Shown here: piece after piece, positions 8,529-47,788 of the stretch | Position numbering within the stretch: the stretch's first letter is position 1 | How the letters are laid out: every line of letters starts with the position of its first letter | DNA from: an uncultured Lamprocystis sp. | GTDB lineage: Bacteria > Pseudomonadota > Gammaproteobacteria > Chromatiales > Chromatiaceae | Assembly: GCF_903933125.1 (NCBI RefSeq) | Contig: NZ_CAIZIZ010000122.1 | Coordinates: 1 to 51,836, forward strand | Direction of reading: 5' to 3' | DNA length: 51,836 nt | Position numbers and translations under genes: made by a program | The notes under the pieces: model-generated | The model's input: only the letters and a program-made list of their open reading frames with translations | Told to the model about the DNA's origin: nothing | Database searches by the model: none

Positions 8529-8547
8529 GACTGGCAACACACTGTTT

Positions 8548-9546: not shown

Positions 9547-9725
9547 ATGAATACTCCCCTCGCGTCATTGTCAGGTTCCGGAGCAACCAGCGCCGCGCGC
9601 TGCACTCCCCATGCGGCAGAATGTCGCGCCAAGCGCCTCAGAAGCAACAGTAGCCTTGAGCGCACCTGTCTGACAACAGCAAGACGGGTACAATTCGGCA
9701 ACACGCAGACCAGAGGACCAAGACC

Positions 9726-29634: not shown

Positions 29635-30178
29635 CAGGCCGAGGGCGGTACAGCCGAGCAGCAGCGGATCCGAACCCGGCGGGCAGCGCCAGCGACGCCT
29701 CCACCCGCAGATCCGGCGCCAGCAGCCGCACCGTCCGGCCCGGGTGATCCAAGAGCCAGAGCCGGCCCCAGGGGTCCTGGCCGATCGCGGCGGGGGCCGC
29801 CGGAACCGGGGGCGGCGCCAGGGGCGCGAAATCCAGACCAGCGGGCGCCGACGGGTCGGTTGCCGCCGCCGGCGTCGGCAGTTCCATCCAACCCTGGGGT
29901 GTCAGCAGCGCGAGCGGCCGACCGCCGCCGCCGGCCAGCACCCGACTCGCGGCGCAACGGTCGGGGGCACAGGCGATCACCACCGCTGATCCCATGACCG
30001 CCCGCCAGGCGGCCAGGTCGGCCGGGCTCAGAACCGCGTCGCCGCCGCCCGCGCCGTCGGCGCCGGCCAGCACCACGGCCCCGGACGCGCCGGGCTGCCC
30101 CTCGAGGCGGGTCCCGTCGTGGTCGCAATGCCCCCACATGGGGCGGCCGGTGAGCTGGGCGAAAGCCGGAGTGGGCAT
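29360..30178 (-). CDS. 5' frame of the split tail protein I-like gene
   Basis: Starts at ATG 30178, overlapping the baseplate J stop as TGATG. Residues 1-170 are plausible protein (PMWGHCDHDGTRL, DPWGRLWLLDHPGRTVRLL, beta-propeller-like). After about 29675 the frame turns into Arg/Gly/Pro-rich nonsense while the sensible sequence continues one base over as GSDPLLLGCTALGLVV. The natural product is probably a fusion with the next frame. A one-base insertion in the CCC run at 29674-29676 would explain it. Sequencing error, true mutation and programmed frameshift cannot be told apart here. Confidence 0.55.
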   Translation of the reverse strand: MPTPAFAQLTGRPMWGHCDHDGTRLEGQPGASGAVVLAGADGAGGGDAVLSPADLAAWRAVMGSAVVIACAPDRCAASRVLAGGGGRPLALLTPQGWMELPTPAAATDPSAPAGLDFAPLAPPPVPAAPAAIGQDPWGRLWLLDHPGRTVRLLAPDLRVEASLALPAGFGSAAARLYRPRPGGDGGRDVPAPGATLGRRMAGLSGAAPGGRRGPSRARRGPALPARGRAAARGGRCAPAAGDRRGWGHPLGSAHGEGPAASDPDRRRYAVGG

Positions 30179-32472: not shown

Positions 32473-32861
32473 CAGGCACCCCCGCTGAGATAGAAAGGAA
32501 AGACCAGATTGCGCGCCCCGGGCTCACCCAGGACCTCATAGCGAATGGCGATGCGCAGCACCGTGGGTTCGCGCTCGTCGGTGGCAACCCCGACCGACTC
32601 CAGCCGGATGCGCGGCTCGTCGCGCGCCAAAGCCTCGGTGACGGTGAGCCGGATGCGGGTGCGCAGCTCCAGCCCGTTGGGCGCGAACAGGAACCGGCGC
32701 AGTCCGGCCCCGTAATTCGGCCGGGCGATGCGCTCCCCGGGCTCGGTGAGCAGGATGGCGCGGATGGACTGCTCCACCGCGGCGACTCCCGCGACCCAAC
32801 CGAAGCCGGCCGCGGTCACCAAGGGAAAACGCAACCCTTGTCCCAATTTGGACTCGCTCAT
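32472..32861 (-). CDS. gp25-like baseplate wedge protein (Afp9-like)
   Basis: A 129-residue GPW/gp25 family protein. The diagnostic stretch is AVEQSIRAILLTEPGERIARPNYGAGLRRFLFAP. In T4, P2, T6SS and eCIS baseplates this protein nucleates sheath polymerisation. The length is normal. A strong GGGGGGAG ribosome site lies inside the preceding micro-ORF, and the ATG overlaps that ORF's stop as ATGA. The end overlaps the baseplate J start. Confidence 0.95.
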   Translation of the reverse strand: MSESKLGQGLRFPLVTAAGFGWVAGVAAVEQSIRAILLTEPGERIARPNYGAGLRRFLFAPNGLELRTRIRLTVTEALARDEPRIRLESVGVATDEREPTVLRIAIRYEVLGEPGARNLVFPFYLSGGA

Positions 32862-32917: not shown

Positions 32918-35445
32918 GACCCCTTCTTTGGGAACGGTATGCAGAATTTCAGCAGCAGCATCCAGGTGAATCCCGGAATCAGGATCAGGATGCTGAAGAT
33001 CAGACTGAACAAGACCATCGCGCAAATGGTGAGCACCGGAATGCCGAAACTGCAGATAAAACCGATGCCCCAATCGCGCTGGGTGTCGGCCATCTCTTCC
33101 CCGGCGACGATCCCGGAACGGTCGGGGGCGGTAACCGCCGCAAAGGGCCGCGCCCGCGCCTTGGCCAGGCGCGGCAGATCGCGCAGGAGCTTGGGGATGT
33201 CCGGCAGCTTGAGGACCGCCGGGCGCCCGCCCAGCAAATCGGTCGGGTCGGCGATGGCAAAGGGTTCGCTGCGTCCGGTCCAGATGACCTGCGCCGGCTC
33301 GCAGGGGTGGCGCCCGGCCACCCGCACCCAGCACCAGACGGCATAGAGGTGATCGGCATCGAAGCGCAGCCGCGGCGCCGACTCGCGGGCGCGCGCCTCG
33401 GGCAGCGCCAGTGACTCGGGGGCGAGGACGAAACGGTTCGCGGCCTGGTCCGCAAACTGCGCGAGCGTGGCCGCGACGGACGGAAAGCCGGGAAGGATCA
33501 ACAGACCCTGCGCCGGCTGCTCGAACAGACTGGCCCCGGCGGCGCGCAGCGGCAACAGACCCCCGGCGATTCTAAAAACGCCGGTGATCTCACCGGCCAG
33601 CGTGGCGGCCCGGGCGCGCAACTCGGCCCCGACCACCCCGCCCGCGGCACCGAGCCCCGCGTCCAGCCCGGCATAGAGATCCGCCAGTGCGACCCCGGCC
33701 CGGTGGACGCCGAGGAGGCGGCCCGCGTTGGGAAGCGCGTGGTAGGAGATCGGCGCCCAGGGCGGCGCGGTTCTGGGGTCGGCACGCCCGGCCTCCAGGG
33801 CCAACACGGATTCGATTTCTTCCCCAAGGGCCGCCGCCGTAGCGATTGGGTTGCCATCCATATCCACAGCGCGCAGCCGCCCCCCGGCGTCCCCCAAGCC
33901 CACGCGCGGGCTCAGATAGGCGGCCAGGGCCAGGCGGTGACCGCGCAGACGCAGGACCGCAAGCAGCAGCAGGGCCGACAGATCCGCCGCGCCGAGCACA
34001 CTGGAGTTGCCCTGGGTCGGTGCAGGGATGACGCCGGTATTCAGCCAGTGGTCGACCACCTGATGCAGCCGTTCGCGCACCAGCCGGTCCCAGTCCAGGG
34101 TATGTTGGGTGGTGTTCTGATGCAGCCATTCGGCCGGCTGGGCACCCGACTCCGCGGGAACCTCGTCGCTCATCGCGGAAAAGGCGTCCGGCTGAATCGC
34201 CTGGCTGGATGCCCCGCTGGACTGCCACAGCAACTGCCCGGTCGGTACCTGCCCGGCGATGTCCAGGTGGGCGGTCGCCGCCGCGGAGACCCCGGTCCAC
34301 AGGGCCGCGATGGCGCGGCGCAGCACCCAGTCCACGCCGGTCGCAACGGCGTTGTGGATATCCAGCGGGGCGGAGAACCCCAGGTGACCGGGGTTATTGA
34401 TCAGGATGCGGGCATTGGTGATCTCCCCCGCCGTCGGGCGCGTCGGCAGGAGGGCGTCGACGAACAGGATGCGCAGCTCAGGTGCGGCCCGAGCGCGCAG
34501 GGCGGGCGCCGCGGCAAACAGGTCATTGAGTGTCGTTCGGCTCCGGGCAGCCAGGGTGGCGGCGATGGTGGTCACCGAACTTTGGGAGAGCCGCGCCGTC
34601 ACCGCCTCCTGAGCGCTGCTGAAGACCGGCAGATAGCCGAACAGGGTGCAGTGCTCCGCGGCCTGGCCGGCATCCGGCGGGACCAGGGCCAGGGGTTGGC
34701 TGGTCAGGGCGACGGGCGGCAGCGCCTGCCCGACCGGGATGTCCAGCAATCCGTGCAGCGCCGCCTGGGCGCTCACCCTGAGGTCCGCGAACGGCAGTGC
34801 CGCCGGGTCGACCGGCAGGTGTTCGGCCGACGCGGCGGGCGGGTCCGGCGGGCGCATCTGCCCATCGAGCAGCCCGATCCAGGCGCCGTGCTGGTCATCC
34901 ACCGCGATCCAATCCTGCCAGTGCTCTTCGGTAGGGTGCCGCACCAGGCGGCGGATCACCGCCCCGGACTGCATGACCCGCGGGCGCGCCAGCCGCGGCC
35001 AGCCGGGTGAGCGACACACCACATCGAAGGCGATGAGGTTGAAGCGCTCATGCAGCGGCAGATACAGCTTGCGCAGCCAGGGCGGCGTGCCGCTCGGGAT
35101 CCCGTCCGGATCGATCCCGCCCCCGGACTCGGGTTCGAAGGCAAGCAGTGGACCGCGCGCGATGGAGTTCGGATAGCGTTTGGCGCCGACGGTGTCCAGC
35201 ATGGCATCCGGGGGCTCGGACCAGTCGCGCCAGGGCAGGAGCCTGGGCAGCGTCCGGGTCTGCCCGGCCACCGCCAGGAAGTCGTCCATGAAGCCGTCGG
35301 TCGCGAAGGACAGGATGAGCGGCGGTCGCGCCGCCGGGGCCTGCGTCAGGTCGCGCAGGAAGAAGGGGGCGACGGCGACCAGAACCTCCCGCGCCGCGAG
35401 GCGCAGAGCCGGTACCAGGAGCCGTTTGGATGGCTTGGCGCTCAC
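32914..35445 (-). CDS. eCIS-operon protein with C-terminal membrane hairpin
   Basis: An 843-residue protein with a mainly soluble, Ala/Leu-rich body and a C-terminal hydrophobic hairpin at about 794-838 (FICSFGIPVLTICAMVLFSL ... IFSILILIPGFTWMLLLKF) ending FPKKGS. It has no signal peptide and no recognised family. A basic flank (RLAKARARP) and the KKGS end suggest both ends stay in the cytoplasm. It lies between spike and gp25 genes and overlaps the spike stop by ATGA. I infer a baseplate-associated membrane anchor for the device. A membrane-active cargo is the alternative. Confidence 0.65.
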   Translation of the reverse strand: MSAKPSKRLLVPALRLAAREVLVAVAPFFLRDLTQAPAARPPLILSFATDGFMDDFLAVAGQTRTLPRLLPWRDWSEPPDAMLDTVGAKRYPNSIARGPLLAFEPESGGGIDPDGIPSGTPPWLRKLYLPLHERFNLIAFDVVCRSPGWPRLARPRVMQSGAVIRRLVRHPTEEHWQDWIAVDDQHGAWIGLLDGQMRPPDPPAASAEHLPVDPAALPFADLRVSAQAALHGLLDIPVGQALPPVALTSQPLALVPPDAGQAAEHCTLFGYLPVFSSAQEAVTARLSQSSVTTIAATLAARSRTTLNDLFAAAPALRARAAPELRILFVDALLPTRPTAGEITNARILINNPGHLGFSAPLDIHNAVATGVDWVLRRAIAALWTGVSAAATAHLDIAGQVPTGQLLWQSSGASSQAIQPDAFSAMSDEVPAESGAQPAEWLHQNTTQHTLDWDRLVRERLHQVVDHWLNTGVIPAPTQGNSSVLGAADLSALLLLAVLRLRGHRLALAAYLSPRVGLGDAGGRLRAVDMDGNPIATAAALGEEIESVLALEAGRADPRTAPPWAPISYHALPNAGRLLGVHRAGVALADLYAGLDAGLGAAGGVVGAELRARAATLAGEITGVFRIAGGLLPLRAAGASLFEQPAQGLLILPGFPSVAATLAQFADQAANRFVLAPESLALPEARARESAPRLRFDADHLYAVWCWVRVAGRHPCEPAQVIWTGRSEPFAIADPTDLLGGRPAVLKLPDIPKLLRDLPRLAKARARPFAAVTAPDRSGIVAGEEMADTQRDWGIGFICSFGIPVLTICAMVLFSLIFSILILIPGFTWMLLLKFCIPFPKKGS

Positions 35446-36143
35446 CAGATGTTCCCCGCCCCCGGCGTATAGCTCGCCGAGACCACGCTGTTGGTAATCA
35501 CCGTATCCGCCTTGACCACCCCGGAGAACTTGGACATCGCCGCGTCCACCGTGACCATGGCGGCCGTGATGTCGAGCCCCGCCGGGGCCTGGATCTTGAC
35601 CTTGACGTTGGCGGTAATCTCGATGTTGCCGGCCGCGTCGATCTTGATCTTGGCGCCGTTGGAGTGTTCGAGGGTGACAGTGCCCCCGGCGCTATCGTCC
35701 AGGGTCAGGGTGTGTCCGCTCTGGGTCTCCAACACCACCTTCTCGGCCCCGGCGGTGTCGTCGAAGGCGAGCCGGTGACCGGAGCGGGAGGTGACCGAGC
35801 GGACGTTGTTGTCGCTGTCCATGGTCTCCGGCGGGGCATCCACGCCGTTCCAGAGGGCACCGATCACCACCGGGCGGCGCGGATCCCCGCCGACAAAGGC
35901 GACCAGAACCTCATCGTCGACCTCGGGGATGAACCAAGTCCCGCGGTCGCCGCCGGCCATCAGGGTCGCCAGGCGCGCCCATGCCAGGGCCGCGCCGCCG
36001 TCCGCCGCCGCCACGAAGGGCAGGCGCAGCTGCACCCGCCCCTGGGCGTCCGGGTCCTGCACGTCGGTCACCTGGGCCGGATAGACGCCGTAGAGGCGGA
36101 AGCGGTCCTGACCGACTGCGGCGGGGTTGGCGCCGGGGATCAT
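35442..36143 (-). CDS. gpV/gp45-like spike protein
   Basis: A 233-residue baseplate assembly protein V. Residues 18-110 are an OB-fold (VYPAQVTDVQDPDAQGRVQL ... TWFIPEVDDEVLVAFVGGDP ... VIGALWNG) as in VgrG/gp5. Residues 120-230 form a repetitive beta-helix needle (GHRLAFDD, GHTLTLDD, GGTVTLEHSNG, AKIKIDAAGNIEI). It trimerises into the puncturing spike beneath the hub. In Afp8/VgrG the hub and spike are fused; here they are separate overlapping genes. The tip ends YTPGAGNIW without a PAAR domain. Confidence 0.92.
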   Translation of the reverse strand: MIPGANPAAVGQDRFRLYGVYPAQVTDVQDPDAQGRVQLRLPFVAAADGGAALAWARLATLMAGGDRGTWFIPEVDDEVLVAFVGGDPRRPVVIGALWNGVDAPPETMDSDNNVRSVTSRSGHRLAFDDTAGAEKVVLETQSGHTLTLDDSAGGTVTLEHSNGAKIKIDAAGNIEITANVKVKIQAPAGLDITAAMVTVDAAMSKFSGVVKADTVITNSVVSASYTPGAGNIW

Positions 36144-37222
36144 GATCCGTCCCCCAGGTCGGCCCGCTGGGCCTCGAATTCGGTGCGGTAGCCGTCCACC
36201 TGGTCGAAGCGGTGCGTGACGGCGGTGACCAGATAGGTCCCGGCGAACCAGGGACCCAGATCCACCAGATTGACCCGTGAGCCCACCCGCAAGGACGGCG
36301 TCCCCTTGGTGGTTCCGACCCCGCGCACGAAGCGGCGCGCCCGGCGCCGCATCGCCGCCTCCGCCAGGGTGCGCGCCTCGGCACCGGTGGCCGGGGCTTC
36401 CAGATGCAGATCCTCGGCGGCCTCTGGGAAGACGTCGGCCACCACCTCGGGTCCGAGCCGCCCGCCGCTCGCCTCCGGGCGCACCGCGTCCGCGCCGGCG
36501 CTCTCGTGGATCGCCTCCTTGGCGGCGACGTCCCAGCCATGAACCCGCACCGCGCCGCGCTGGTGGGCCAGGTCGGCGAGCACGGTGAAGCGGATCAGGT
36601 CGTTCTCACGGGTGAGCTTGATGGGTGGATCGTTGGCGTTGACGGGCTCCAGCACCCGCACGGTACCGTCGCGCAGCCCGATCAGGGCATCCCCGGTGCG
36701 CTCCCGCAAGGCACTCAGGTCATCTTGATTGACCTGCCATAGGGCGGTGTGACTGGCCCCGTCGCGCGCGACCTCGGCGCGCAGACCCGCGTCCTCCAGG
36801 ATGCGGGTCGCGATTGCCCCATCAGTCTGATCCTCGCTCAAACGTGTGCGGCGGCGATAGCGCAACCCGGTCAGGGCGTCCTCGGCGAGCAGGGTCAGCT
36901 CCGGCGCACGCAGTTCCGGGTAGGCGGCGCCGATGCCGGTAATGAGCCCCTCGAAAATCGGCTCCGGCGCGCCGGTAACAGCGAAGGCGATGCCGATGCG
37001 TTTGCCGAAGTCGATGGCGGTCCGGTCAAAGTGGACGAAGTCGACCGGCTTGCCCTCCTCCCGGCTCCCCCAGTTGAGGAAGACCGCCTCCAGGGAGGCC
37101 ACGCCGGCCGCGTCCGCCCGCGCCTCCAGCCGGATCAGATCCGCTTCCAGGCGCGCGGCGGGAGCGCCGTCCACCTGGATGCGTGGGCGACCCGCGGCGC
37201 TGAGTTCGGGCTGGCCGCTCAT
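36140..37222 (-). CDS. gp27-like baseplate hub (late control protein D family)
   Basis: A 360-residue protein of the phage late control D/VgrG N-terminal family. It has the typical opening PRIQVDGAPAARLEADLIRL, then FGKRIGIAFAV...IFEGLITGIGAAYPE, ADLAHQRGAVRVHGWDVAAKEAI and, near the end, LVDLGPWFAGTYLVTAVTHR. Hub trimers join the tube to the spike. It overlaps the DUF5908-like gene upstream and the spike gene downstream by ATGA. Confidence 0.92.
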   Translation of the reverse strand: MSGQPELSAAGRPRIQVDGAPAARLEADLIRLEARADAAGVASLEAVFLNWGSREEGKPVDFVHFDRTAIDFGKRIGIAFAVTGAPEPIFEGLITGIGAAYPELRAPELTLLAEDALTGLRYRRRTRLSEDQTDGAIATRILEDAGLRAEVARDGASHTALWQVNQDDLSALRERTGDALIGLRDGTVRVLEPVNANDPPIKLTRENDLIRFTVLADLAHQRGAVRVHGWDVAAKEAIHESAGADAVRPEASGGRLGPEVVADVFPEAAEDLHLEAPATGAEARTLAEAAMRRRARRFVRGVGTTKGTPSLRVGSRVNLVDLGPWFAGTYLVTAVTHRFDQVDGYRTEFEAQRADLGDGS

Positions 37223-37413
37223 GGGCAGTCGCCCCGCCGACGCAGCCAGCGCTCGATTTCTTCCGCCACCAGGGCGCGGACCAGCGGACGCAGGTCCTCG
37301 ATCTGCACCTCGAAGGCCGCCCCCTCCTGCGGACTGAGCGCAGCACCGGATTCGCCGCCGCCCGTTGGCGGGGACTCGATGGTGGTGGTCATCTCACCGA
37401 TATGCACGGTCAT
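37219..37413 (-). CDS. Small DUF5908-like eCIS protein (Afp6 position)
   Basis: A 64-residue acidic/basic helical protein: MTVHIGEMTTTIES, a Gly/Pro linker, then LRPLVRALVAEEIERWLRRR. Small proteins of this form (DUF5908) stand between the tube-initiator and hub genes in many eCIS operons. The call rests on position and on the short N-terminal strand plus C-terminal helix pattern. It overlaps both neighbours by ATGA. Its biochemical role is unknown. Confidence 0.6.
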   Translation of the reverse strand: MTVHIGEMTTTIESPPTGGGESGAALSPQEGAAFEVQIEDLRPLVRALVAEEIERWLRRRGDCP

Positions 37414-38723
37414 CGGTCACCCCCGCCCGACCCGTCGCCTGACTGACGCGCGGACTGACCGGAGGCTGCCGTACCGCAGCGACGGCAACCGCACCCGGGC
37501 GGGTGGACGGCGGCCGTCGCCGCGGCGGGCGACAGCGACTCCCAGCGCGGGCGACGCTCGCCCAGGTCGCGGGAGACCGGCGGACCGCCGACGCTGAGCA
37601 GGGGAACAGCGAGGCCGAGGGAACGCTGGGGCGCGAGCGGCGGACTGCCGCGGACCGGAAGCGGCGGTGCCGCCGCGGTGCCGCCGGAAGCCGCGGCGGG
37701 AGCCGGTCGGGCCAGCGCCCCACCCGCCCGCTGGTTGGCGACAACGGCGGCGAGTCCGGCCGCGCGGCTCCCCGGGGCCGGACCCTCGGGGGCCCAGGGG
37801 TTGGGGACGGCACCGGCGGCGGCGAGTCCGGGCGAAGGCTGAGGCAGCGCCAGACCGCTGCGCCCCAGGTCCACCCCGCCGCCCGCTCCGCCCGCACCGC
37901 CCGCACCGCCGCCCAGGGCCGCGGCGCCGAACAGGTCCACCGCGGCGGCGGCGTCCAGGTGGACCCCGGCCCCCACCGAGAGACCGATATCGGCAGACGC
38001 GCCGAACTTGGCTGAAAGCCCCAAATCCGCCGACAGTCCCAGGTCCAAATCCAGATCGAGGCCGACCTCGAGTGCGAAGCTCGCGCTCAGATCCAACCCC
38101 AGCCCGGCGCCGAAGGGGCCGCCCGCCCCCAACACGCTGCCGGCCCCGGCAGCGGCGGCCTGGGCGCGCGCGCCGCCGGCGGCCTGCTCGACCGCCTGAC
38201 GGCGCCGGGCGGCGTCGGTAGCGGCCACGTCGTAGCGGAACTCCTGTTCGGTCAGGGTCAACTGGACCTTGGACCGCAGCGGCACCCCGCTCGGGCTGAA
38301 ATACTCGAACACCTCCTGATGCGAGCTGATGACCCCGTTGAAGATCAGGGTCCCCCACGCGAACTGGACGCGCCGCGGGGCCTGCTCCTTACCGCTGCCG
38401 AACACTTGGAGCAGATCGGCGATGGGCTTGGTGCGCAGGCGCACATCCAGCAGTTCCTCGCCGCTCCCGCCGTCACCGGCCTGGCCGTCGCGCGGGCGGG
38501 TGGAGTCGAAGACACATTCAAAGTTCAGGGTCGCCTTGGAAGCGCCGACGTTCTGCACCTGCTGGCGTCCCTTACGGCCTTTGTCCTTCTGCTCACCGCC
38601 CGAGACCTTGAGGGTCAGGGTCTCCGGATTGAAATCGAGCGGGATGGCGCGGGACTCCTCAAGCTGCTTGCCCCCGGCAGCGAACGGGATCAGCTTGGCG
38701 CGTTTGAATTCGGCGGTGCTCAT
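37410..38723 (-). CDS. CIS tube/Afp7-like protein with long Gly/Ala-rich extension
   Basis: A 437-residue protein. Residues 1-165 resemble the CIS_tube domain (AKLIPF...IPLDFNPETLTLKVSGG ... TLNFECVFDSTRP ... VQFAWGTLIFNGVISSHQEV ... TLTEQEFRYDV), the tube-to-hub adaptor Afp7. Most homologues continue with a LysM domain. Here the tail is instead a low-complexity array of LGLDLDLDLGLS-like segments, Gly/Ala runs and Pro linkers, ending with a cysteine cluster PGCGCRRCG. The overlap with the tube gene upstream (ATGA) fits stoichiometric production. Confidence 0.82.
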   Translation of the reverse strand: MSTAEFKRAKLIPFAAGGKQLEESRAIPLDFNPETLTLKVSGGEQKDKGRKGRQQVQNVGASKATLNFECVFDSTRPRDGQAGDGGSGEELLDVRLRTKPIADLLQVFGSGKEQAPRRVQFAWGTLIFNGVISSHQEVFEYFSPSGVPLRSKVQLTLTEQEFRYDVAATDAARRRQAVEQAAGGARAQAAAAGAGSVLGAGGPFGAGLGLDLSASFALEVGLDLDLDLGLSADLGLSAKFGASADIGLSVGAGVHLDAAAAVDLFGAAALGGGAGGAGGAGGGVDLGRSGLALPQPSPGLAAAGAVPNPWAPEGPAPGSRAAGLAAVVANQRAGGALARPAPAAASGGTAAAPPLPVRGSPPLAPQRSLGLAVPLLSVGGPPVSRDLGERRPRWESLSPAAATAAVHPPGCGCRRCGTAASGQSARQSGDGSGGGDR

Positions 38724-39199
38724 TGCGGCTCCCGGCTCAGGCCCTCATGGACGATGTGCAGTTCCTCCAAGGGCACTTCACGTCCGGCCGCGGCGTTGAG
38801 ATCCGCGGCCTTGACCTTGTTGACAATCCCGTTCTCGAAGCGCCACACGCCGGCCGGCGCCCCCGCCCCGCTGGCCTGGTAGACCCGGACCGTGCCGGCG
38901 ACATAGGGCAGCGGAAAGGTGCCGTTCAGGCAATGCTGCACCCAGGTCCAGAAGGCCGGGTCCAGTGACAGGCCGCGCTTGAGCACCAAGGGGGGATTGG
39001 TGGTCTTGCCGACCAACTGACGCGCGCCGCGGTTGTAGCCGCCCTCGCGGAAGGTCACCGGCTCCAGGGTGATCTCGAGTCCGGAGACCTCCGAGAAGGC
39101 GCCGCGTGCCCCGAGCGCGAGGCCCTCGTCCCCGCCCAGGCCGGACAACTCGATCTGGACGGAAAAGTTATAGTTGGTGAGCAGGACCTCGGTGCCCAT
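38720..39199 (-). CDS. Tail tube protein 2 (T4 gp19-like)
   Basis: A 159-residue tail tube protein. YNFSVQIELSG at the start and FSEVSGLEITLEPVTFREGG, then LVLKRGLSLDPAFWTWVQ and the C-terminal VPLEELHIVHEGL follow the pattern of phage tube/Hcp-like folds. It stacks as hexamers inside the sheath. It differs clearly from the other tube protein, so it may form the special ring next to the baseplate, as Afp5 does. It overlaps the sheath gene upstream by TGATG. Confidence 0.93.
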   Translation of the reverse strand: MGTEVLLTNYNFSVQIELSGLGGDEGLALGARGAFSEVSGLEITLEPVTFREGGYNRGARQLVGKTTNPPLVLKRGLSLDPAFWTWVQHCLNGTFPLPYVAGTVRVYQASGAGAPAGVWRFENGIVNKVKAADLNAAAGREVPLEELHIVHEGLSREPQ

Positions 39200-41349
39200 C
39201 AGGGTGCCTCCATACGTGCATCGTCGGCGCCGTGACGCACCAGCCGAAAGACGATGAACTCCGCCGGTACCGCGGGCGCGACGCCGATCAGCAGGGTCGC
39301 GCGGCCCGCGTCCAGGTCGGCCTGGGGGTTGGTGCCGGCATCGCAGCGCACGAAGAAGCTGTCGCTGTCGGTACGCCCGGCCAGCGCCCCGGCATTGAAC
39401 AGGGGCATGAGCCGGCGCCGTGCGGTGCCGGCCATGGCCGACCAGAGGGCCGCATCGTTGGGCTCGAACGGCGCCCAGGCCAGGTCCGCGGCGAGTTGCG
39501 CCTTGAGCCAGTCGATCAGCCGCCGCACGCCGATGTGGGTCCAGTCCGGGTCAGTGGAGGTGGTGCGGGAACCGAGCAGCAGCAGACCGCGCTCGGTGCG
39601 CCGAATCTCGTCAATGCGCTCCTCAAACAGGAATCCGGGGTCCGGCAGCCCCTGATCCTCGACCCGGGCGAAGGCACCCAGGACCGACCGGTTGGCGGGC
39701 GCGGCCCAGACACCGATCGCGTTCTCCACCTGGGCGACGATGCCGGCCGCGGCGCCCCCGGGCGGGACGCTGAGCGCCGCGCCATCCGCATCCACCCGCA
39801 GCCAGGGCGCATAGAGCGCTGCCCGGTCACTGGCCAGCGACCGCCGCCACCCCACGACCTCCCCGGCACCCAGCCCGGGGGGCAGATCGAGCAGGGCGAT
39901 GCGTCCACCCTGGGCCTCGCAGTGAGCCACCAGCCGCTGTTGGGCCGCGCGGAGATCCGCGGCGTCGAAACCCAGAAGCGGATAACCGCGCACCTGGGGT
40001 GGCGCCTCGGCGGGCGACGCGGCGCAGGCGGCGGAAAAGCAGAACGGGTCCGCGGGCAGCGCCGGTGCCGCCGCGGGCGTCTCCGGGGTGCTGGGGTGCA
40101 GCAGGTCGGGCAGATAGAGCACAGCGATGGGTTCAAACGGGAAGGCGTCGTCCCAGCGGACCAAGGCGTCCAGCGCGCCGGGCCGAAAACCGAAGGGGAT
40201 GAGTCGGTGATCGCTGTCCGCGGCGGCCTGGGCCGGGTACATTTCAGTCGCCTCGAAGAACTGCGCACGCCCGGTGGTGACGTTGGCGTCGCGTCCGCGG
40301 CGGGAGACCGGCAACTCCGCCCCCGAGAGATAGAGCCCGGTTGGCGCGTCCAACAGCGCCTTGCCGGGGCGCAGCCAGGCGTCTGTGAGCAGTGCACTCG
40401 GACGCAGATACTCGGAGCCCCAGGGATCGTCCAGTGTGCCCCACAACCGGTCCGCCTCGGCCCCCGGGTCCTCCGGGTCCGGGTCATGCACCGGCGGCGG
40501 ACGCAGGCCCTCGGTCGCCGCGCGCCGCCCGATCAACCGCGGCAGATAGCGGGGATGATCCGGGTGCAGGCCGGTGTCTTCCCAGCGCTCCACCAGTCGG
40601 CCATCCAGGTGAATCTCCAGGGTCAGCGTCAGCTCCTGCGCGGCACGCAGCAACTCGGGGTCGCGGAAGGCCGCGGTGACGGCGGGGTAAAACTCAACCT
40701 CCGCCGCGCCCTGCCGGCTGGTGCCCAACCCGGCCCCCGCGGCGGGATCAGGCGCGATACCGGGCCCCAGACCGGTGACCCGGAAGAGCCGCAGCCGGGG
40801 GGCGGCGCCAGGGGAGTCCGGCAAGCCGGTCAGCCGCAGGGTGCTGCCGACCAGGGTACGGCGGTCCGGGGCCAGATAATGGGGCTGCCCGGCGGCGTCG
40901 ATTGCAAGGTCAAGCGGCAGGGGCCGCGCCACCACGCGCAGCCGCAACCCCAGACCATTGCCCCAGGCCCCGGGGTTGCGCGCGGCCAACCGGGCTTGGC
41001 GCCCGGAGGTGCCGCGCAGGGCACGGATACCGGGAAGGATGAACCGGGCGGTGCGGACCATCGCATGATCCAGGCAACGCACCACCACACAGCGCCGGCC
41101 GCCGTTGGCAAAGAACAGGCGCACCGCCTGGGGCAGGTTGAGCCCCGGCAGCGCCCGCCCGAACAACGCCGTGAACTGGCCGGGATCGTCGATCCCCACC
41201 GGGGTGTTGATCGGACCGCGCTCGCTGAGCCCGATCAGGGCGGCGACATCGAGCCGGACCCGCGGCCGGCGGGCGACCGCGGGGACCTCCTCGAAGACGC
41301 CGGGCGGCAGACCGGGCCGCCACAGGCTGCCTTGCAGTGCGACACTCAT
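39199..41349 (-). CDS. Tail sheath protein 2
   Basis: A 716-residue contractile sheath subunit. The N-terminal signature is PGVFEEVPAVARRPRVRLDVAALIG..ERGPINTPV, the middle contains LPQAVRLFFANGGRRCVVVR, and the conserved C-terminal handshake region is WTHIGVRRLIDWLKAQLAAD with WAPFEPNDAALW. Compared with sheath 1 it has a larger insertion (residues 120-420) likely exposed on the outside. It is probably the baseplate-proximal or decorated sheath. It precedes tube 2 in a repeated sheath-tube arrangement. Confidence 0.94.
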   Translation of the reverse strand: MSVALQGSLWRPGLPPGVFEEVPAVARRPRVRLDVAALIGLSERGPINTPVGIDDPGQFTALFGRALPGLNLPQAVRLFFANGGRRCVVVRCLDHAMVRTARFILPGIRALRGTSGRQARLAARNPGAWGNGLGLRLRVVARPLPLDLAIDAAGQPHYLAPDRRTLVGSTLRLTGLPDSPGAAPRLRLFRVTGLGPGIAPDPAAGAGLGTSRQGAAEVEFYPAVTAAFRDPELLRAAQELTLTLEIHLDGRLVERWEDTGLHPDHPRYLPRLIGRRAATEGLRPPPVHDPDPEDPGAEADRLWGTLDDPWGSEYLRPSALLTDAWLRPGKALLDAPTGLYLSGAELPVSRRGRDANVTTGRAQFFEATEMYPAQAAADSDHRLIPFGFRPGALDALVRWDDAFPFEPIAVLYLPDLLHPSTPETPAAAPALPADPFCFSAACAASPAEAPPQVRGYPLLGFDAADLRAAQQRLVAHCEAQGGRIALLDLPPGLGAGEVVGWRRSLASDRAALYAPWLRVDADGAALSVPPGGAAAGIVAQVENAIGVWAAPANRSVLGAFARVEDQGLPDPGFLFEERIDEIRRTERGLLLLGSRTTSTDPDWTHIGVRRLIDWLKAQLAADLAWAPFEPNDAALWSAMAGTARRRLMPLFNAGALAGRTDSDSFFVRCDAGTNPQADLDAGRATLLIGVAPAVPAEFIVFRLVRHGADDARMEAP

Positions 41350-41422: not shown

Positions 41423-41878
41423 TCATTCGTACTCCAGGTCCTCACAGACCAGGGTGAGTTCCTCCATCGCCACGTCCGAAGCCCCTTTGGCGGCCAGGGT
41501 GGGACCGGTCCATTTGGACGGTCGGGCGTTGACCAGCCGCCAGGTGGCGACCGTGGCCGCGTGGTCCTCGCTCAACAACTCGATGACTACCGTGGCGCGC
41601 GCCTGCATGTTGCCCTTGCGCACCGCCACGACCCAGTTCCACAGATCCAGGGCGGCGATCAGTCCGCGCTTGAGGGTGACATCCCCGGCCTTGTACATCA
41701 GGGGGATCTTGCGCGGGCGGTTGGCGGCATCCGTGCCCTCCCGATAGTCGGCATAGGTGATCTCGCTCGACAGTCCCGAGCAATCCGAGAACCCGCCCCG
41801 GAACTCGCCGCCGCTCCCGGGGGAGATGGTGACCTTGAAGTTGAATGGACCGTAGGGGTCTTCACGCAGGGTTGCCAT
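41423..41878 (-). CDS. Tail tube protein 1 (T4 gp19-like)
   Basis: A 151-residue main tube subunit: DPYGPFNFKVTISP, FSDCSGLSSEITYADYREG, DVTLKRGLIAALDLWNWV and the C-terminal VAMEELTLVCEDLEYE are standard for phage and eCIS tube proteins. A GGAG ribosome site precedes the ATG. It is separated from the genes on each side by 70-90 bases, unlike the tightly overlapping genes downstream, which may allow extra expression of this abundant subunit. Confidence 0.94.
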   Translation of the reverse strand: MATLREDPYGPFNFKVTISPGSGGEFRGGFSDCSGLSSEITYADYREGTDAANRPRKIPLMYKAGDVTLKRGLIAALDLWNWVVAVRKGNMQARATVVIELLSEDHAATVATWRLVNARPSKWTGPTLAAKGASDVAMEELTLVCEDLEYE

Positions 41879-41964: not shown

Positions 41965-43851
41965 TCAGACGAGCGAGGCATCCGCGGTCCACTGGCCGAT
42001 GCGGAAGATCACGAACTCCGCCGGCTTGGTGGGCGCGACCCCGATCAGACAGACCAGACGGCCGTTGTCCAGGTCCGATTGACTCATGGTGGTCCGGTCG
42101 CAACGCACGAAAAAGGCGTCTTCCGGGTTCGCACCCAAGAGGGCGCCCTTGCGCCATTCGTCGTAGAGGAACCCCTCGATGGTGAGACGGATCTTGAGCC
42201 AGAGCTCCGCGTTGTTCGGCTCGAAAACCGCCCACTGGGTACTGCGGTCGATTGAATGCTCCAGATAGATGAAGAGCCGGCGGACATTGACATAGGTCCA
42301 TTCCGGATCCGAGGTGATGGTGCGCGCACCCCACACCCGGTAGCCGCGCCCCTCGAAGAAGCGCAGGCAGTTGATCCCTTCCGGGTTGAGGACGTCCTGC
42401 TCGCCCTTGTTGACGTTCCTGGAAAAACGCAGGATGCCGCGGACCGTCTCGTTGGCCGGGGCCTTGTGCACGCCGCGTTCGATATCGCTGCGGGCAAAGA
42501 TGCCGGCCATGGCACCCTCCGGGGACAGCAGCATGGTCTCGCGCGCCCCGCCCGGGACACTGACGACCAGCCAGGGGTAGTAGAGCGCGGCATAGGTGGA
42601 GTCGAATTTGCCGCGGACCTCGCGAATCTCGGCCTGATCGGCGTTGGCGGGCCCGGCCAGGATGGCGAAGCGGTAGCGCAGGTTGCTCGCGTGGGTGATC
42701 AGCACATCGTTGACCGCCTGACGGTCGTCGGCGTTCTCCAGCGCGGCGGACCCGGGGGCCGCGACGATGGCGATATCCTCGATCTCGGCCAGGGCCGCGA
42801 GCCCGGTTGCCGCGTGCCCGCTGCCTCCGCCCGCGACAGTGGCCGGCTCCAGCGCCCGTCCATCCACGCCCCCGGCCAGCGTCATGGGCGACCGCGCGAT
42901 CAGGACGTTCAGCAGATCGCGGGCGAAGGAGGTGCGGTCGGCCGGCAGACTGGGCAGATCGGCCACCGGATCGAACCAGACCCGCTGGCCGCGATCGGCC
43001 GGCGGCTCGACCCCGTTTGCCGGGTCCTCATGGCGCAGGATGCGACCGACGAACTGGTCGGAGTCCGGATGCGTGGACAGGCGCGGGATCAGGTCCAGCC
43101 GGCCCCCGGTCGAGCCGTCCTGGTTGGGTCCGATGGTCAGGTCCAGGGTGATCTTCTGCACCGCGGTCAACCCCGCGGCATTCAGATCCAGTGGATTGGC
43201 CGGGGGATTGGCGTCGTTGCTCAGCACCGGGCGTCCCGCCGAGTCGAAACTGACCGAGTAGAAGTTGGTTCCGACCACCGCCTGCGGACCGCTGGACGTC
43301 ACCACCCGGTCCTTGACCGTTCCACCCCCGGTCACCGCTTCCACCACATCCCCCAACCGCAGCCCGGTGACCGTGCGGTTGGGTGCCGCGCCGGTCAGCA
43401 GGTTTCCGCTACGAAACGCGCGGGCCGTCACGACCACATTGCCCGCGGCCCCAGGGAAGCGGGCACGCAGGAAGCGATCCACGCCAAGCACCGAGAGCGC
43501 CAACGGGTCCGGGCTGGCCGGCGTACCCGCCCGGCTGAGCGCGGTCGTGCTGCCGACCGCGGGGCGGAACACGCGCGCCACATAGACCCGTTTGCCGCCG
43601 TTCTCGAAAAACAGGCGCACCGCATGGGCCAGATGGTTGGTCGTCGGAACCCCGGCGAGCAGCAGCGCATCCGCGTCGCCGAACCGGCGCTGGAAGTCTT
43701 CGAAGCCGGTGATCAGAACCGGCAGACCCTCCACCGGTCCGAAGCGCGCCTGGCCGACGAAGCCGGCCGTGGAGGTGGCCACGCCCTCGATCGACTTGGC
43801 GCGGAAACTGGTCTCTTCGACATAGACACCGGGGGCAAGATACTCGGGCAT
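41965..43851 (-). CDS. Tail sheath protein 1
   Basis: A 628-residue sheath subunit beginning MPEYLAPGVYVEETSFRAKS, the standard sheath opening, and ending with WTYVNVRRLFIYLEHSID and WAVFEPNNAELW followed by the strand that links neighbouring subunits. ATG 43851 is chosen because a GGAGGG ribosome site lies 6 bases upstream and the family starts there; upstream in-frame codons overlap the previous gene. It is the likely major contractile subunit. Confidence 0.95.
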   Translation of the reverse strand: MPEYLAPGVYVEETSFRAKSIEGVATSTAGFVGQARFGPVEGLPVLITGFEDFQRRFGDADALLLAGVPTTNHLAHAVRLFFENGGKRVYVARVFRPAVGSTTALSRAGTPASPDPLALSVLGVDRFLRARFPGAAGNVVVTARAFRSGNLLTGAAPNRTVTGLRLGDVVEAVTGGGTVKDRVVTSSGPQAVVGTNFYSVSFDSAGRPVLSNDANPPANPLDLNAAGLTAVQKITLDLTIGPNQDGSTGGRLDLIPRLSTHPDSDQFVGRILRHEDPANGVEPPADRGQRVWFDPVADLPSLPADRTSFARDLLNVLIARSPMTLAGGVDGRALEPATVAGGGSGHAATGLAALAEIEDIAIVAAPGSAALENADDRQAVNDVLITHASNLRYRFAILAGPANADQAEIREVRGKFDSTYAALYYPWLVVSVPGGARETMLLSPEGAMAGIFARSDIERGVHKAPANETVRGILRFSRNVNKGEQDVLNPEGINCLRFFEGRGYRVWGARTITSDPEWTYVNVRRLFIYLEHSIDRSTQWAVFEPNNAELWLKIRLTIEGFLYDEWRKGALLGANPEDAFFVRCDRTTMSQSDLDNGRLVCLIGVAPTKPAEFVIFRIGQWTADASLV

Positions 43852-43868
43852 GGGACCCTCCGTCGGCC

Positions 43869-44735
43869 TCAGGGGAACAGCTCGATATCCCACCGGACGC
43901 GTTCGCCGATGGAAACCGTGGTTAAGGGATTCTGGCCGTTGACGCGCTCGCGCAGGGCACCAACGGCCGGGCGCAGTTGGAAGTCACGGACCTGGAACAG
44001 GGCAGTGCGATCCGCGTCCGAAAGGCTGAAGACACCCGGCGGCAGCGCCCGCAAATAACCCTGGGGCCCGGCCAGGGCCGCCGCCAAGGGCGGACGCGGG
44101 ACCTCGACGGTCAGGCGGCGGTCGAAGCGGCGCACCGGCGGCGCAACACCGCGATTTATCATTTCACCGGGCAGAACCAGGAGGTAGCAGCCGTCCGGGC
44201 CGCTCATGCTGGTGACCCGGTCCGCCACCTCGGTCCGTACCGTATCCAGCCCCACCAGGGCACCGGGGACCGGACGCCGGTCATCGCGCCCGCGCACCAG
44301 CCCCCAGATCGCGGCAGTGCCCGGGGGGACGGCGAAATCGATCGCCGGGCGCAGCGCGACGTCCAGATACAGGGGCCGCGGCGCGTTCGCACCCGGCACC
44401 TCGCCCGCCTCCAAGGCCTCCCGCACCGACTGCCGATCCGGTACCGCGGCGGTCAGCGCCTGCGGCAGATAGCGACCGGCGGGGTCCGACACTTCCACCC
44501 GGGCGATCCCCGGCGGCAACCGGAGAAAGCCGTAAAGCCCGGTCGACTGATGCCAGACAGGCGTCTCCTCGCGGTCCGGCACCCGCACCATCAGCCCCGG
44601 GATCGGGGTGAGTCCCAACGCAACACCGTCGCTCAAGTAACGCCGCGGGCGAATGGCCAGGACGCCGACCGCGGCAATCCGGTCCGGGGAATGCCCGGCG
44701 GCCCAGGTCATCACGTGTTCGGCGGGTACGGCCAT
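43869..44735 (-). CDS. Carboxypeptidase-regulatory-like eCIS protein
   Basis: A 288-residue protein. Residues about 140-190 resemble a carboxypeptidase regulatory-like beta sandwich (AAIWGLVRGRDDRRPVPGAL ... SMSGPDGCYLLVLPGEMI). Such a domain is commonly fused to DUF4255 in Pvc16-type proteins; here it is a separate gene starting one base after the DUF4255 stop. ATG 44735 is preferred to 44759. I infer that it works with the DUF4255 protein at the distal cap of the tail. Confidence 0.65.
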   Translation of the reverse strand: MAVPAEHVMTWAAGHSPDRIAAVGVLAIRPRRYLSDGVALGLTPIPGLMVRVPDREETPVWHQSTGLYGFLRLPPGIARVEVSDPAGRYLPQALTAAVPDRQSVREALEAGEVPGANAPRPLYLDVALRPAIDFAVPPGTAAIWGLVRGRDDRRPVPGALVGLDTVRTEVADRVTSMSGPDGCYLLVLPGEMINRGVAPPVRRFDRRLTVEVPRPPLAAALAGPQGYLRALPPGVFSLSDADRTALFQVRDFQLRPAVGALRERVNGQNPLTTVSIGERVRWDIELFP

Positions 44736-44736
44736 C

Positions 44737-45318
44737 TCAGGCAGGTACCGGGGGCACAACCGGGGTCATGACCAAGGTCCGGGTATCGGCAATCGGGGGG
44801 TCGGAGCGCTCGCGCACGGCCAACCGGATCGTGCGCACCACATAAGGGATCGAGATCTGGTAGGGGGGCTCCAGACTGTCCCAGAGCCTCAGCATGTCCT
44901 CAGTACTCAAGTGCGAGAGCGAAACCCGCAGCGCGTCCTCGGGCTCCCAGGGATAACCGGGATCCAGCAGGTTGCCGGTGATCACGGCGTGACGATCCAG
45001 GATATCCATGCAGCGCGCCAGCATCATCTGTTCTCCCTCCGCCGACGGACCGCTGCCCCACACCGTGAGCAGGTAATGCAGTTCCAGCCCCAGGGCCACC
45101 CGCCGCGGGGCGGTCGGCGCCAACCGGGGCAGTTCGACGTGGCGGCGCGCCTCGTCCACCTCCACCCGATAGAGAAAGATGGCCACCGTGTTGGTCAGCC
45201 CCGGGGAGAAGTGACGCGTGGAAAAAAGCGACACCGTGAAGGGGTTGACACCGCCGGTGGCAGCCAACTGGTCTTCGAGTAACCTCCGCAGGGTAGCGCT
45301 GGCGCCGGCAATGAACAT
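44737..45318 (-). CDS. DUF4255 tail terminator/cap protein (Afp16/Pvc16-like)
   Basis: A 193-residue DUF4255 protein: the opening ATLRRLLEDQL, FLYRVEVDEARRH, the conserved LGLELHYLLTVWG and YPWEPEDALRVSLSHLSTEDMLRLWDSL with YQISIPYVVRTIRL are typical. Afp16 caps the sheath-tube end and fixes particle length. It starts 34 bases after the first gene of the operon, with a weak ribosome site. Confidence 0.92.
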   Translation of the reverse strand: MFIAGASATLRRLLEDQLAATGGVNPFTVSLFSTRHFSPGLTNTVAIFLYRVEVDEARRHVELPRLAPTAPRRVALGLELHYLLTVWGSGPSAEGEQMMLARCMDILDRHAVITGNLLDPGYPWEPEDALRVSLSHLSTEDMLRLWDSLEPPYQISIPYVVRTIRLAVRERSDPPIADTRTLVMTPVVPPVPA

Positions 45319-45352: not shown

Positions 45353-45685
45353 TTACTGCAAAGAGTCACCGGGCGCACTCGGCCGCGGCTCCGCCGCAGG
45401 TTCGGCGGGCCCGACTCCCGATGACTGGCGTGTGGCGCCTGCGCCATCACCCGCCAACATATAAAGGGTCTGGCCGGCCGGTGAGACCTTGAACTGGACC
45501 CGCGCCTCGCCGACCAGATAATCGAGGGCACGCTGAACCCGCCACCGGGTCTCTTCAAGTCGCTGCCGCTTGATCCACCAGCGGGCGATCCCTTCGACCG
45601 TATCCGCCGCCTCCCCATGGGTTTCCAGATACCTGAGGATTTCGCGCGCGAGCGACTCGACATCGACTTCGGGATTCATGCCCAT
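45353..45685 (-). CDS. Small winged-helix-like protein, first gene of the eCIS operon
   Basis: A 110-residue protein from ATG 45685, preceded by a GAGGGTGG ribosome site. Residues 5-80 look like a helix-turn-helix/winged-helix domain (ESLAREILRYLETH, EGIARWWIKRQ, TRWRVQRALDYLVGE, then a two-strand wing VQFKVSPAGQTLYML). The tail is disordered. Longer in-frame starts reach into the promoter and are unlikely. As the first gene behind the sigma-54 promoter it may be a local regulator. No family name is assigned. Confidence 0.65.
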   Translation of the reverse strand: MGMNPEVDVESLAREILRYLETHGEAADTVEGIARWWIKRQRLEETRWRVQRALDYLVGEARVQFKVSPAGQTLYMLAGDGAGATRQSSGVGPAEPAAEPRPSAPGDSLQ

Positions 45686-45735
45686 CGCCACCCTCGTCTC
45701 GCGTCGGCCCAAGCGCTGGCGCCATGTCCGAGTGT

Positions 45736-45752
45736 TGCAGTTTGGATGCCAA
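45736..45752 (-). promoter_or_regulatory. Predicted sigma-54 (-24/-12) promoter of the eCIS operon
   Basis: Minus-strand TTGGCATCCAAACTGCA matches YTGGCAC-N5-TTGCW with the invariant GG and GC at exactly ten-base spacing. The predicted start is near 45725, giving a 5' leader of about 40 bases before ATG 45685. A sigma-54 activator gene is the next gene upstream, which supports the call. Confidence 0.68.
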
Positions 45753-45901
45753 TGCGAGTCTTCTCGTAACCAATTGAATCGCAATGGCGTGTTGCGGCCG
45801 AGACCAGGCTGCGGGTTGATCAGGACCCACCAGCACCCGTGGTTTCGACAGTAAACACAGGGATATCATAATCTTATGCGGTTCGCGCCAAGACCGTCGG
45901 C

Positions 45902-45937
45902 GGGTCACCCACGACCCGCGCGGGTCGGATACGACCC
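45902..45937. promoter_or_regulatory. Tandem dyads, likely enhancer for the sigma-54 activator
   Basis: Two copies of GGGTC-N6-GACCC lie at 45902-45917 and 45922-45937, exactly 20 bp (two helical turns) apart. Their centres are about 184 and 204 bp upstream of the predicted start, the usual range for enhancer sites of sigma-54 activators. Between them is a perfect palindrome CGACCCGCGCGGGTCG. Flanking direct repeats ACCGTCGGCGG occur near 45893 and 45946. Confidence 0.6.
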
Positions 45938-46146: not shown

Positions 46147-46351
46147 CAGCAATTCCAAATTTGAGGGTCCGCTGCGGCCCATGGTGGATGGGGCGCGCAC
46201 AACCGACGTGCTGAATCCCGAACATCGTGCGGCGCGCCTTATCCACCCTACAAAATTAAAGGTTTTGTAGGGGGGATAAGCGTAGCGCATCCACCATCAG
46301 CCCCGCCGACGGCTTCACGCTGGATGCTGCCGCCCAAATTTGGAATTGCTG
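46147..46351. mobile_element. MITE-like element, about 205 bp
   Basis: Terminal inverted repeats CAGCAATTCCAAATTTG (46147-46163 and 46335-46351, 17 of 17 bases) enclose a region with no gene. It is flanked by a perfect 9-bp direct repeat TGCCGGCTT at 46138-46146 and 46352-46360, a target-site duplication. Inside is a hairpin, CTTATCC...CCTACAAAA / TTTTGTAGG...GGATAAG (46238-46280), and flanking GTGGATG/CATCCAC arms. It must have been moved by a transposase encoded elsewhere. Confidence 0.75.
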
Positions 46352-46396: not shown

Positions 46397-47788
46397 TCAG
46401 ATTGGATCGCAGCCGTTTAGGGAGGCCGCGGTAATCCCGTATTTCTTGAGCAGCTTGCCGAGGGCACGCCGCTCCTTTCCGGCCACCCGGGCAGCGCGGG
46501 TCACGTTGCCGTTGGCGTCCGCCATCAGACGGATCAGATACTCCTTCTCGAAGATCTCGACGGCCCGGCTCTTGGCCGCGGCAAAACCGATCCCGGCGAG
46601 CGGGTGGTCGTCGGGCTGAAAAGGCCCCAAAGACTGTGCGGAATCGGCCGCGGGGAACACCCGCAACAGGTCACCGGTCGCCAGGAGAACCTCGCGATGC
46701 ATCAGGTTCTCGAGTTCCCGAACGTTCCCGGGCCAGTGATAGGCGCGCAGCAGGCGCAGCGTGCCCGGGTCCAGCGTCTTGACCCGAAGGCCGTACTGAT
46801 GACAGAACATCTCGACGAAGTGGCGCGCGAGCAGGTCGATATCGTCCACCCGCTCGCGCAGCGGCGGCAGCCGCAGTGACAGGATGTTCAACCGGAAGTA
46901 CAGATCGGCCCGAAACCCCTGCCGGGCCGACAACGCGCGCAGGTCGGCGTTGCTGGCGGTGACGACGCGGGTATCGGCGTGACGCACCTGCTGCCCGCCG
47001 AGCGGGCGGTATTCCTTGTTTTGCAGGAACCGCAGCAGCGCCGCCTGCGCCTTAGGCGAGAGTGCCTCGACCTCATCGAGAAAGAGGGTGCCGCCGGCGG
47101 CCTCACCGATCGCGCCCACGGCGGCGGAGCGGGCATCCGTGTAGGCACCGCGCTCATGACCGAAGAGTTCGTTTTCGACCAGATGATCAGGCAGCGCTCC
47201 GCAGTTGACCGGCACGAAGGGGCCACCCGCCCGCCCGCCCAGGTAATGCAGGGCGCGCGCGACCAGTTCCTTACCGGTGCCGGTCTCACCCTCGATCAGC
47301 ACCGGGGCCGCGCATTGGGCCAGCCGGCGCACCCGGCCGATAGCATCGAGAAAACTCGGGGAGCGGCCGATCAGGTTGAGCTCGACCAGGGTCTGCGCGA
47401 GCTCGGGGTCCAGACTCTCCGGCGCCGGGCGCCGATCATGGCACAGGCGTTTCAGCCGGTAAGCCAGTTCATCTTCAGCACAAGGCCAGCGGGCGCAGTC
47501 GCAGCAGCGCTCGATCAACTCCGGCTCCCACACCGTCTCGCCGGTGACCAGCAGTGCCAGACTTGGCATCGCCCGCGCCGATTCCATGGCCGTCAGGACA
47601 TGGTCCCGACGACCCGCTGAACCGAGCAGGAACACCACCGCCCCCGGCCAGCCGTCCATCGCTCCGTCGTTCACCTGCGCGGGCGACAGGACGCGCGGCT
47701 GGTAGCCGAGCGCGTCGAGGGCCGCGCGCATGGCCGCGCCGGTATCCGGATGGGCGAAGGGAACCAAGGCTAAGGGCGAGGCGTTCAA
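46397..47788 (-). CDS. Sigma-54-dependent activator (bEBP), likely eCIS regulator
   Basis: A 463-residue enhancer-binding protein from TTG 47788 with a GGGAGGA ribosome site. Residues 1-115 are a degenerate receiver-like domain lacking the phosphorylation aspartates but with a cysteine cluster CCDCARWPC (95-103). The AAA+ domain has Walker A GETGTGKE (167-174), [13 protein letters not shown] with the sigma-54 contact loop GAYTDA (214-219, normally GAFTGA), Walker [10 protein letters not shown] and the arginine-finger motif [10 protein letters not shown]. The C terminus is a Fis-type helix-turn-helix (about 430-455). It lies next to the eCIS promoter on the same strand and probably controls it. 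Confidence 0.9.

Follow-up and report, generated by a model that had tools for sequence, protein, structure and literature searches.

The operon of a phage-tail-like injection machine (eCIS) in an uncultured Lamprocystis sp. is very probably under the control of a dedicated switch formed by sigma-54 and an enhancer-binding protein, both the operon and the predicted switch lying within the 51,836 nucleotides analysed here (the window). Little is known of what turns such machines on. Under a sigma-54 switch, the promoter would stay silent until one dedicated activator works, and such a switch would provide a direct handle to turn on eCIS machines and to find their triggers. Dedicated sigma-54 control of the injection system had been put forward in an initial annotation of the window and is supported, at the level of sequence, by the conservation of promoter and dyads in related loci; the annotation was correct, having seen part of a wider system.

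The putative promoter, TTGGCATCCAAACTGCA (45736-45752, minus strand), presents the TGGCA and TGC elements of a -24/-12 promoter in exact GG-N10-GC format, as had been annotated, and predicts a transcription start (+1) at 45725. Taken within the window alone, this match is meaningless: a consensus scan with three mismatches gives 31 such matches, this site included, against 44 expected. As the window-only match is no better than chance, its conservation in relatives was tested. The genome itself carries an rpoN gene, coding for sigma-54 (PF00309, 5.8e-16, contig C305).

Further upstream, two GGGTC-N6-GACCC dyads (45902-45917 and 45922-45937, no strand assigned) are centred at -184.5 and -204.5, with the exact step of 20 bp given in the initial annotation. 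Both dyads of the two-site enhancer proposed there are thus present, but a third, proximal site had been overlooked. This putative activator site, TGGGTCCTGATCAACCCG (45812-45829, minus strand), is centred at -95.5 and matches 10 of the 12 consensus letters, bringing the enhancer-like sites upstream of the promoter to three; it has the same letters in the related genome G005 and falls in the most populated position bin of the family. The window contains two dyads where 0.18 would be expected, a number reached in two of 100 shuffles. There is no enrichment of dyads over the whole genome (21 places, while the reversed pattern used as control has 24), and the pair at 45902-45937 is the only tandem among those 21 places. 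Between the stop codon of the upstream activator gene and the dyads, a MITE-like stretch is found (46149-46349) with the inverted ends GCAATTCCAAATTTG (46149) and CAAATTTGGAATTGC (46335); the distance from stop to dyads is about 467 bp in the window versus about 47 bp in G005, a difference of about 420 bp.

The adjacent gene upstream (46397-47788, minus strand) encodes a protein of 463 aa, counted from a TTG start, with a Sigma54_activat AAA+ domain (PF00158, 1.1e-58) and a Fis-type HTH (HTH_8, PF02954, 2.6e-6), which bears out its earlier identification as a sigma-54 activator. The predicted structure (pLDDT 86) comprises a beta-alpha, receiver-like N-terminus, the AAA+ domain and the HTH, and its best structural matches are NtrX, NtrC1/NtrC4 and FleQ, with VpsR lower in the list; Response_reg (PF00072) gave no match to the protein at E <=0.001. 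The sigma-54 contact loop reads GAYTDA, versus the canonical GAFTGA, and the replacement of the second glycine by D is shared by 22 of 30 aligned activators and by 61 of the 70 loops that are readable among 74 activators found beside promoter loci. In NorR the equivalent substitution, G266D, yields an active and signal-independent protein (PMC2941729), and the activator described here may therefore be controlled through its own amount or through a partner rather than by phosphorylation.

The claim that the promoter drives the eCIS is supported at the level of sequence; the first gene of the operon, however, is no eCIS structural gene but a small winged-helix leader gene of 108 aa, which we call sml (45353-45679, minus strand). 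Its product matches nothing in Pfam or NCBIfam at E <=0.1, and the fold is predicted by an AlphaFold2 model (pLDDT 75). All the following genes lie on the same minus strand. The first eCIS structural gene, coding for a Pvc16_N protein (44737-45318; PF14065, 7.3e-31), starts 34 bp after sml, followed by the sheath (41965-43893; PF04984, PF17482), the inner tube (41423-41878; PF06841), a second sheath-like protein (39199-41349; PF17482 above and PF04984 just below the cut-off) and a second tube protein (38720-39199; PF06841). Beyond these are found the genes for a CIS_tube protein, a hub-like GPD protein (below the cut-off) and a baseplate V spike (35442-38723), those for gp25, baseplate J and Tail_P2_I proteins, with one gene between them without Pfam match (27760-32861), an AAA ATPase (20054-22384; PF00004, 1.2e-24) and an eCIS_core protein (17987-19144; PF13699, 3.1e-21). 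Sheath, tube, gp25, baseplate J, AAA ATPase, Pvc16 and eCIS_core are thus assembled in one locus. From the activator to position 11496 there are 23 gene junctions, of which the first, between activator and sml, measures 717 bp and the other 22 are of 187 bp at most or overlapping, as computed from mechanical ORF starts, some of which are probably too early, with overlaps of 196-352 bp.

Two other features of the locus deserve description. A 1764-aa protein (12519-17813, minus strand), with no Pfam match at 0.001 and a weak internal match to eCIS_core (E 3.3e-4), is a candidate cargo protein. On the plus strand (7749-11492), the eCIS is flanked by a hybrid histidine kinase with HisKA, HATPase and receiver domains, preceded by two further genes. 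All three are also beside the eCIS in G005, and the kinase is a possible sensor for the system.

A search with the activator in 55 genomes, the source genome included, returned four clear relatives: G005 (96%), G006 and G007 (both 65%) and G019 (47%). The whole arrangement is retained in G005, namely the -24/-12 element (TTGGCATCCGAAGTGCC), the third site and both dyads with their 20-bp step, the N6 bases being different. In G007 (C1, 3682612-3733327), the activator gene is located about 49 kb from sml, past the eCIS at the opposite end of the locus, and sml retains its promoter and dyads.

The search was then based on sml, which was found in 19 of the 210 genomes sampled from the family and in 13 of the 369 from the class, the source genome being in both, giving a first set of 31 loci (alignment A3 holds 29 of the 31 sequences, L047 and two near-duplicates being left out). 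A good -24/-12 element (score >=0.84) is present in 30 of them, at a distance of 61-133 bp ahead of the sml match; it is missing in L047, where the contig has 223 bp before the match. Dyads, for which at least 10 of 12 letters had to agree with TGGGTC-N6-GACCCA over a distance of up to 300 bp, occur in 20 of the 31 loci and in two or more copies in 15, versus 0.44 loci expected from shuffles, with the qualification that both the motif score and the extended consensus were fixed after some loci had been seen. In control sequence from elsewhere in the loci, we counted 5 sites in 45,040 bp and 13 sites in 305,201 bp, and two of these 13 belong to the enhancer of L100, one of the loci themselves. 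Loci L077, L078 and L080 have activator and sml, though no eCIS was seen there by tblastn.

As a further control, we inspected the DNA upstream of 20 Pvc16 genes without sml, where "without" means that none was detected in a first look that scored part of the candidates per genome. The control covers the Pvc16 places that had been given a locus; L114 is an additional Pvc16 copy of an sml-carrying genome, and the dyad count excludes L122, which has some 30 bp upstream. No dyad was found in these 24,000 bp, and a sigma-54-like site lies within 1200 bp upstream in 5 of the 20, at 102-1035 bp and with scores of 0.84-0.86. On the same definition of absence, Pvc16 is found in 10 of the 13 class genomes with sml and in 20 of the 356 without (Fisher, 6e-10), so that sml can also serve as a marker.

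Scanning genome contigs for sml provided a second, broader sample of 116 relatives, of which 80 were kept. Their labels include Pseudomonadota, Acidobacteria/Holophagaceae/Geothrix, Desulfuromonadales, Desulfobulbaceae, Polyangiaceae and Nitrospirae, together with NC10/Methylomirabilota, Aminicenantes, KSB1, Ignavibacteria, Gemmatimonadota, Verrucomicrobia and Phycisphaerae. The promoter was found in 68 of these 80 and the dyad in 41. After the removal of 11 that duplicated the first 31 or each other, the remaining 69 brought the total to 100 non-redundant loci, the window among them and many of the relatives being MAG contigs. A good -24/-12 element stands within 250 bp of sml in 88 of the 100 loci, compared with 182 of 4000 windows drawn at random from these loci (4.6%), at 41-151 bp above the sml match (median 77 bp). 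The claim of the initial annotation has therefore survived the conservation check named there as able to refute it, as the dyad too is present: 56 of these 88 loci have it, 26 of them in at least two copies. It accompanies the promoter in 20 of 30 loci of the first set and in 36 of 58 of the second, which had not been used for writing the consensus.

The commonest positions of the dyad start are 71-80 and 161-170 bp ahead of the -24 element. Neighbouring sites are spaced by 20 bp in four loci (the window, G005, L048 and L055), by 32-33 bp in seven and by 42 bp in two, all of them near whole helical turns, and 17 further pairs are 56-221 bp apart, most commonly 86-94 bp. The tandem with a step of two helical turns, which the initial annotation had emphasized, is thus found in the window as described, but it represents one layout of several across the relatives. 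Within 250 bp, no good promoter is found in twelve loci, including the eCIS loci L047, at a contig end, and L152, and in L134 neither promoter nor dyad was found, yet the activator is directly upstream of sml. The 32 promoter loci without the GGGTC dyad contain 34 perfect 5-6-5 dyads of any sequence, against 12.6 expected.

The dyad and the DNA-binding helix of the activator appear to be linked and to change together. Of the 74 activators beside promoter loci, 46 go with a dyad; 39 of these have a recognition helix of the form [DE]RR-x-[LIF]-G-[KR], as do 7 of the other 28, a comparison in which the pattern was picked after looking and related loci share helix and dyad by descent. In some loci where the GGGTC dyad is missing, other helices go with other arms: SRTALWNLL or SRTGLWNLL with GTCAC, GTCAT or GTGAC (L150, L210, L213), and NRRAFxEL with AGGACA (L201, L205).

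The genes behind sml, and the activator nearby, were tallied in an equivalent set of 100 loci in which L136 replaces G005. An activator gene (E <1e-60 with the activator profile) is near sml in 77, absent in 18 and not judgeable in 5. Behind sml, eCIS genes follow on the same strand in 58 loci, T6SS genes in 8, a Tad-type pilus in 2, a partial eCIS in 1 and other genes in 25, and in 6 the contig ends within less than 1.5 kb; as the loci were found through sml, the 58% share says nothing about eCIS in general. The promoter is present in 56 of the 58 eCIS loci, 19 of the 25 with other genes, 6 of the 8 T6SS loci, both Tad loci and 5 of the 6 at contig ends, and the dyad in 40, 10, 1, 1 and 4 of them, respectively (the partial eCIS has neither), so that the dyad accompanies mainly eCIS. 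Seven of the eCIS loci with a promoter are labelled as lying outside Pseudomonadota (L141, L150, L158, L180, L208, L210 and L213), all of them MAGs, and the order activator-promoter-sml-eCIS recurs in MAGs of several phyla.

Some of the non-eCIS loci are worth describing individually. T6SS genes are behind sml in L166, L149, L163, L172, L175, L202, L193 and L091; L166 shows VipA and VipB domains fused in a single 697-aa protein, besides Hcp, TssF, TssG and a gp25-like protein (below the cut-off). The Tad locus L182 encodes TadE, CpaB, a secretin and a T2SSE ATPase. L088 and L151 (Sedimenticola MAG) have activator, sigma-54 promoter and sml, but in place of the eCIS the next gene encodes a DUF6345 protein. 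In L159, L173 and L176 (Holophagaceae, Acidobacteria and Geothrix MAGs), sml, promoter and dyad are present and the next large gene is on the opposite strand, so these loci are possibly stand-alone sml units.

We infer that, in the Lamprocystis locus, the activator encoded just upstream binds the dyads at about -95 and about -185/-205, presumably upon some inducing signal, and that the bound protein would assemble its ATPase ring, which, through looping of the DNA, would open the sigma-54 RNA polymerase parked on 45736-45752. The transcript would depend on RpoN and begin near 45725, with sml read first, and transcription would then continue across the short or overlapping junctions through the eCIS genes to about 11.5 kb. 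The winged-helix product of sml might itself have a regulatory role.

Other explanations have to be weighed against this model. The promoter might serve sml alone, the sml product regulating the eCIS or other genes and the eCIS genes having a separate promoter. The three loci in which the next large gene is on the opposite strand, the other genes found downstream of sml in 25 of 100 loci and the modelled winged helix, a common DNA-binding fold, are in line with this arrangement; we nevertheless hold it to be unlikely, given that Pvc16 starts 34 bp after sml, that the 21 later junctions are of 187 bp at most or overlapping, and that same-strand eCIS genes stand behind sml in 58 of 100 loci. It is more improbable that activator and sml make up a regulatory cassette of general use which adjoins eCIS genes incidentally. 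Such a cassette would account for the presence of sml and promoter ahead of T6SS, Tad pilus and other genes (6 of 8, 2 of 2 and 19 of 25 loci), but not easily for the dyad in 40 of the 58 eCIS loci as opposed to 1 of 8 T6SS loci, for the co-occurrence of sml with Pvc16 (10 of 13 versus 20 of 356 genomes), or for a gene order, from activator to eCIS, that is common to MAGs of several phyla.

The GAYTDA loop raises the question of whether the activator has ceased to drive sigma-54 and works with sigma-70, as FleQ and VpsR can. The frequency of D at the second glycine and the appearance of both proteins among the structural matches of the model speak for this reading, which we consider very improbable, as the -24/-12 element is conserved beside activators of the GAYTDA type and NorR G266D keeps its activity (PMC2941729). 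Finally, -24/-12 element and dyads could be chance matches in GC-rich DNA, in agreement with the 31 similar promoter matches against 44 expected in the window and with the absence of genome-wide dyad enrichment. This explanation is hardly credible in view of the position-specific conservation of the promoter (88 of 100 loci, with a background of 4.6%) and of the G005 dyads, kept while their spacer bases changed. Dedicated sigma-54 control of the eCIS operon is the reading that we favour.

A wider and distinctly more tentative proposal, which we regard as possible though doubtful, is that activator, dyads, -24/-12 promoter and winged-helix leader constitute a portable cassette that is present in several phyla and attached to large exported machines (eCIS, T6SS and Tad pili). 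The leader would be an obligate partner feeding back on the promoter or the activator and setting the share of cells that build the machine, and the GA[FY]TDA loop would make the activator respond to its own level or to the binding of a partner instead of to phosphorylation.

In terms of known systems, the combination of a bEBP, an enhancer and a -24/-12 promoter is classical. Such a combination placed before eCIS genes, joined by a conserved winged-helix leader, recurring across several phyla and having a cousin ahead of T6SS, appears to be undescribed in the literature searched. The initial annotation had known of no well-described sigma-54-controlled eCIS and, in agreement with it, no sigma-54- or RpoN-controlled eCIS was found among the matches listed in open PMC text, a source that leaves preprints outside and holds few subscription papers, as judged by title and start of abstract. 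None of the GerE/LuxR-type, BTAD and RfaH regulator families is known to comprise sigma-54 activators. Regulators of these families are described as adjoining eCIS loci, as the activator does here, with signals unknown and with GerE beside 25.8% of the loci, in the broad survey of Geller et al. 2021 (PMC8213781), and the word "sigma" has no occurrence in the main text of that article.

The activator resembles the bEBPs NtrX, NtrC1, FleQ and VpsR in its predicted set of receiver-like domain, AAA+ and HTH, and differs from them in the missing Response_reg match (E <=0.001) and in the D of its GAFTGA loop. Within T6SS clusters, VasH is a bEBP encoded by the cluster itself. Control of T6SS clusters by sigma-54 and VasH is reported in Vibrio, Aeromonas and Pseudomonas (PMC8710571, PMC3804575, PMC10482370), and as in the present case it ties a sigma-54 activator to the expression of a contractile machine; in our system the machine is an eCIS, the winged-helix leader comes first and the N-terminus of the activator is predicted to be receiver-like. 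NorR and norV of E. coli provide a parallel to the promoter region, with a sigma-54 activator and three enhancer sites above one promoter (PMC2941729), although NorR combines a GAF sensor with a GAFTGA loop, whereas the activator of the window combines a receiver-like domain with GAYTDA.
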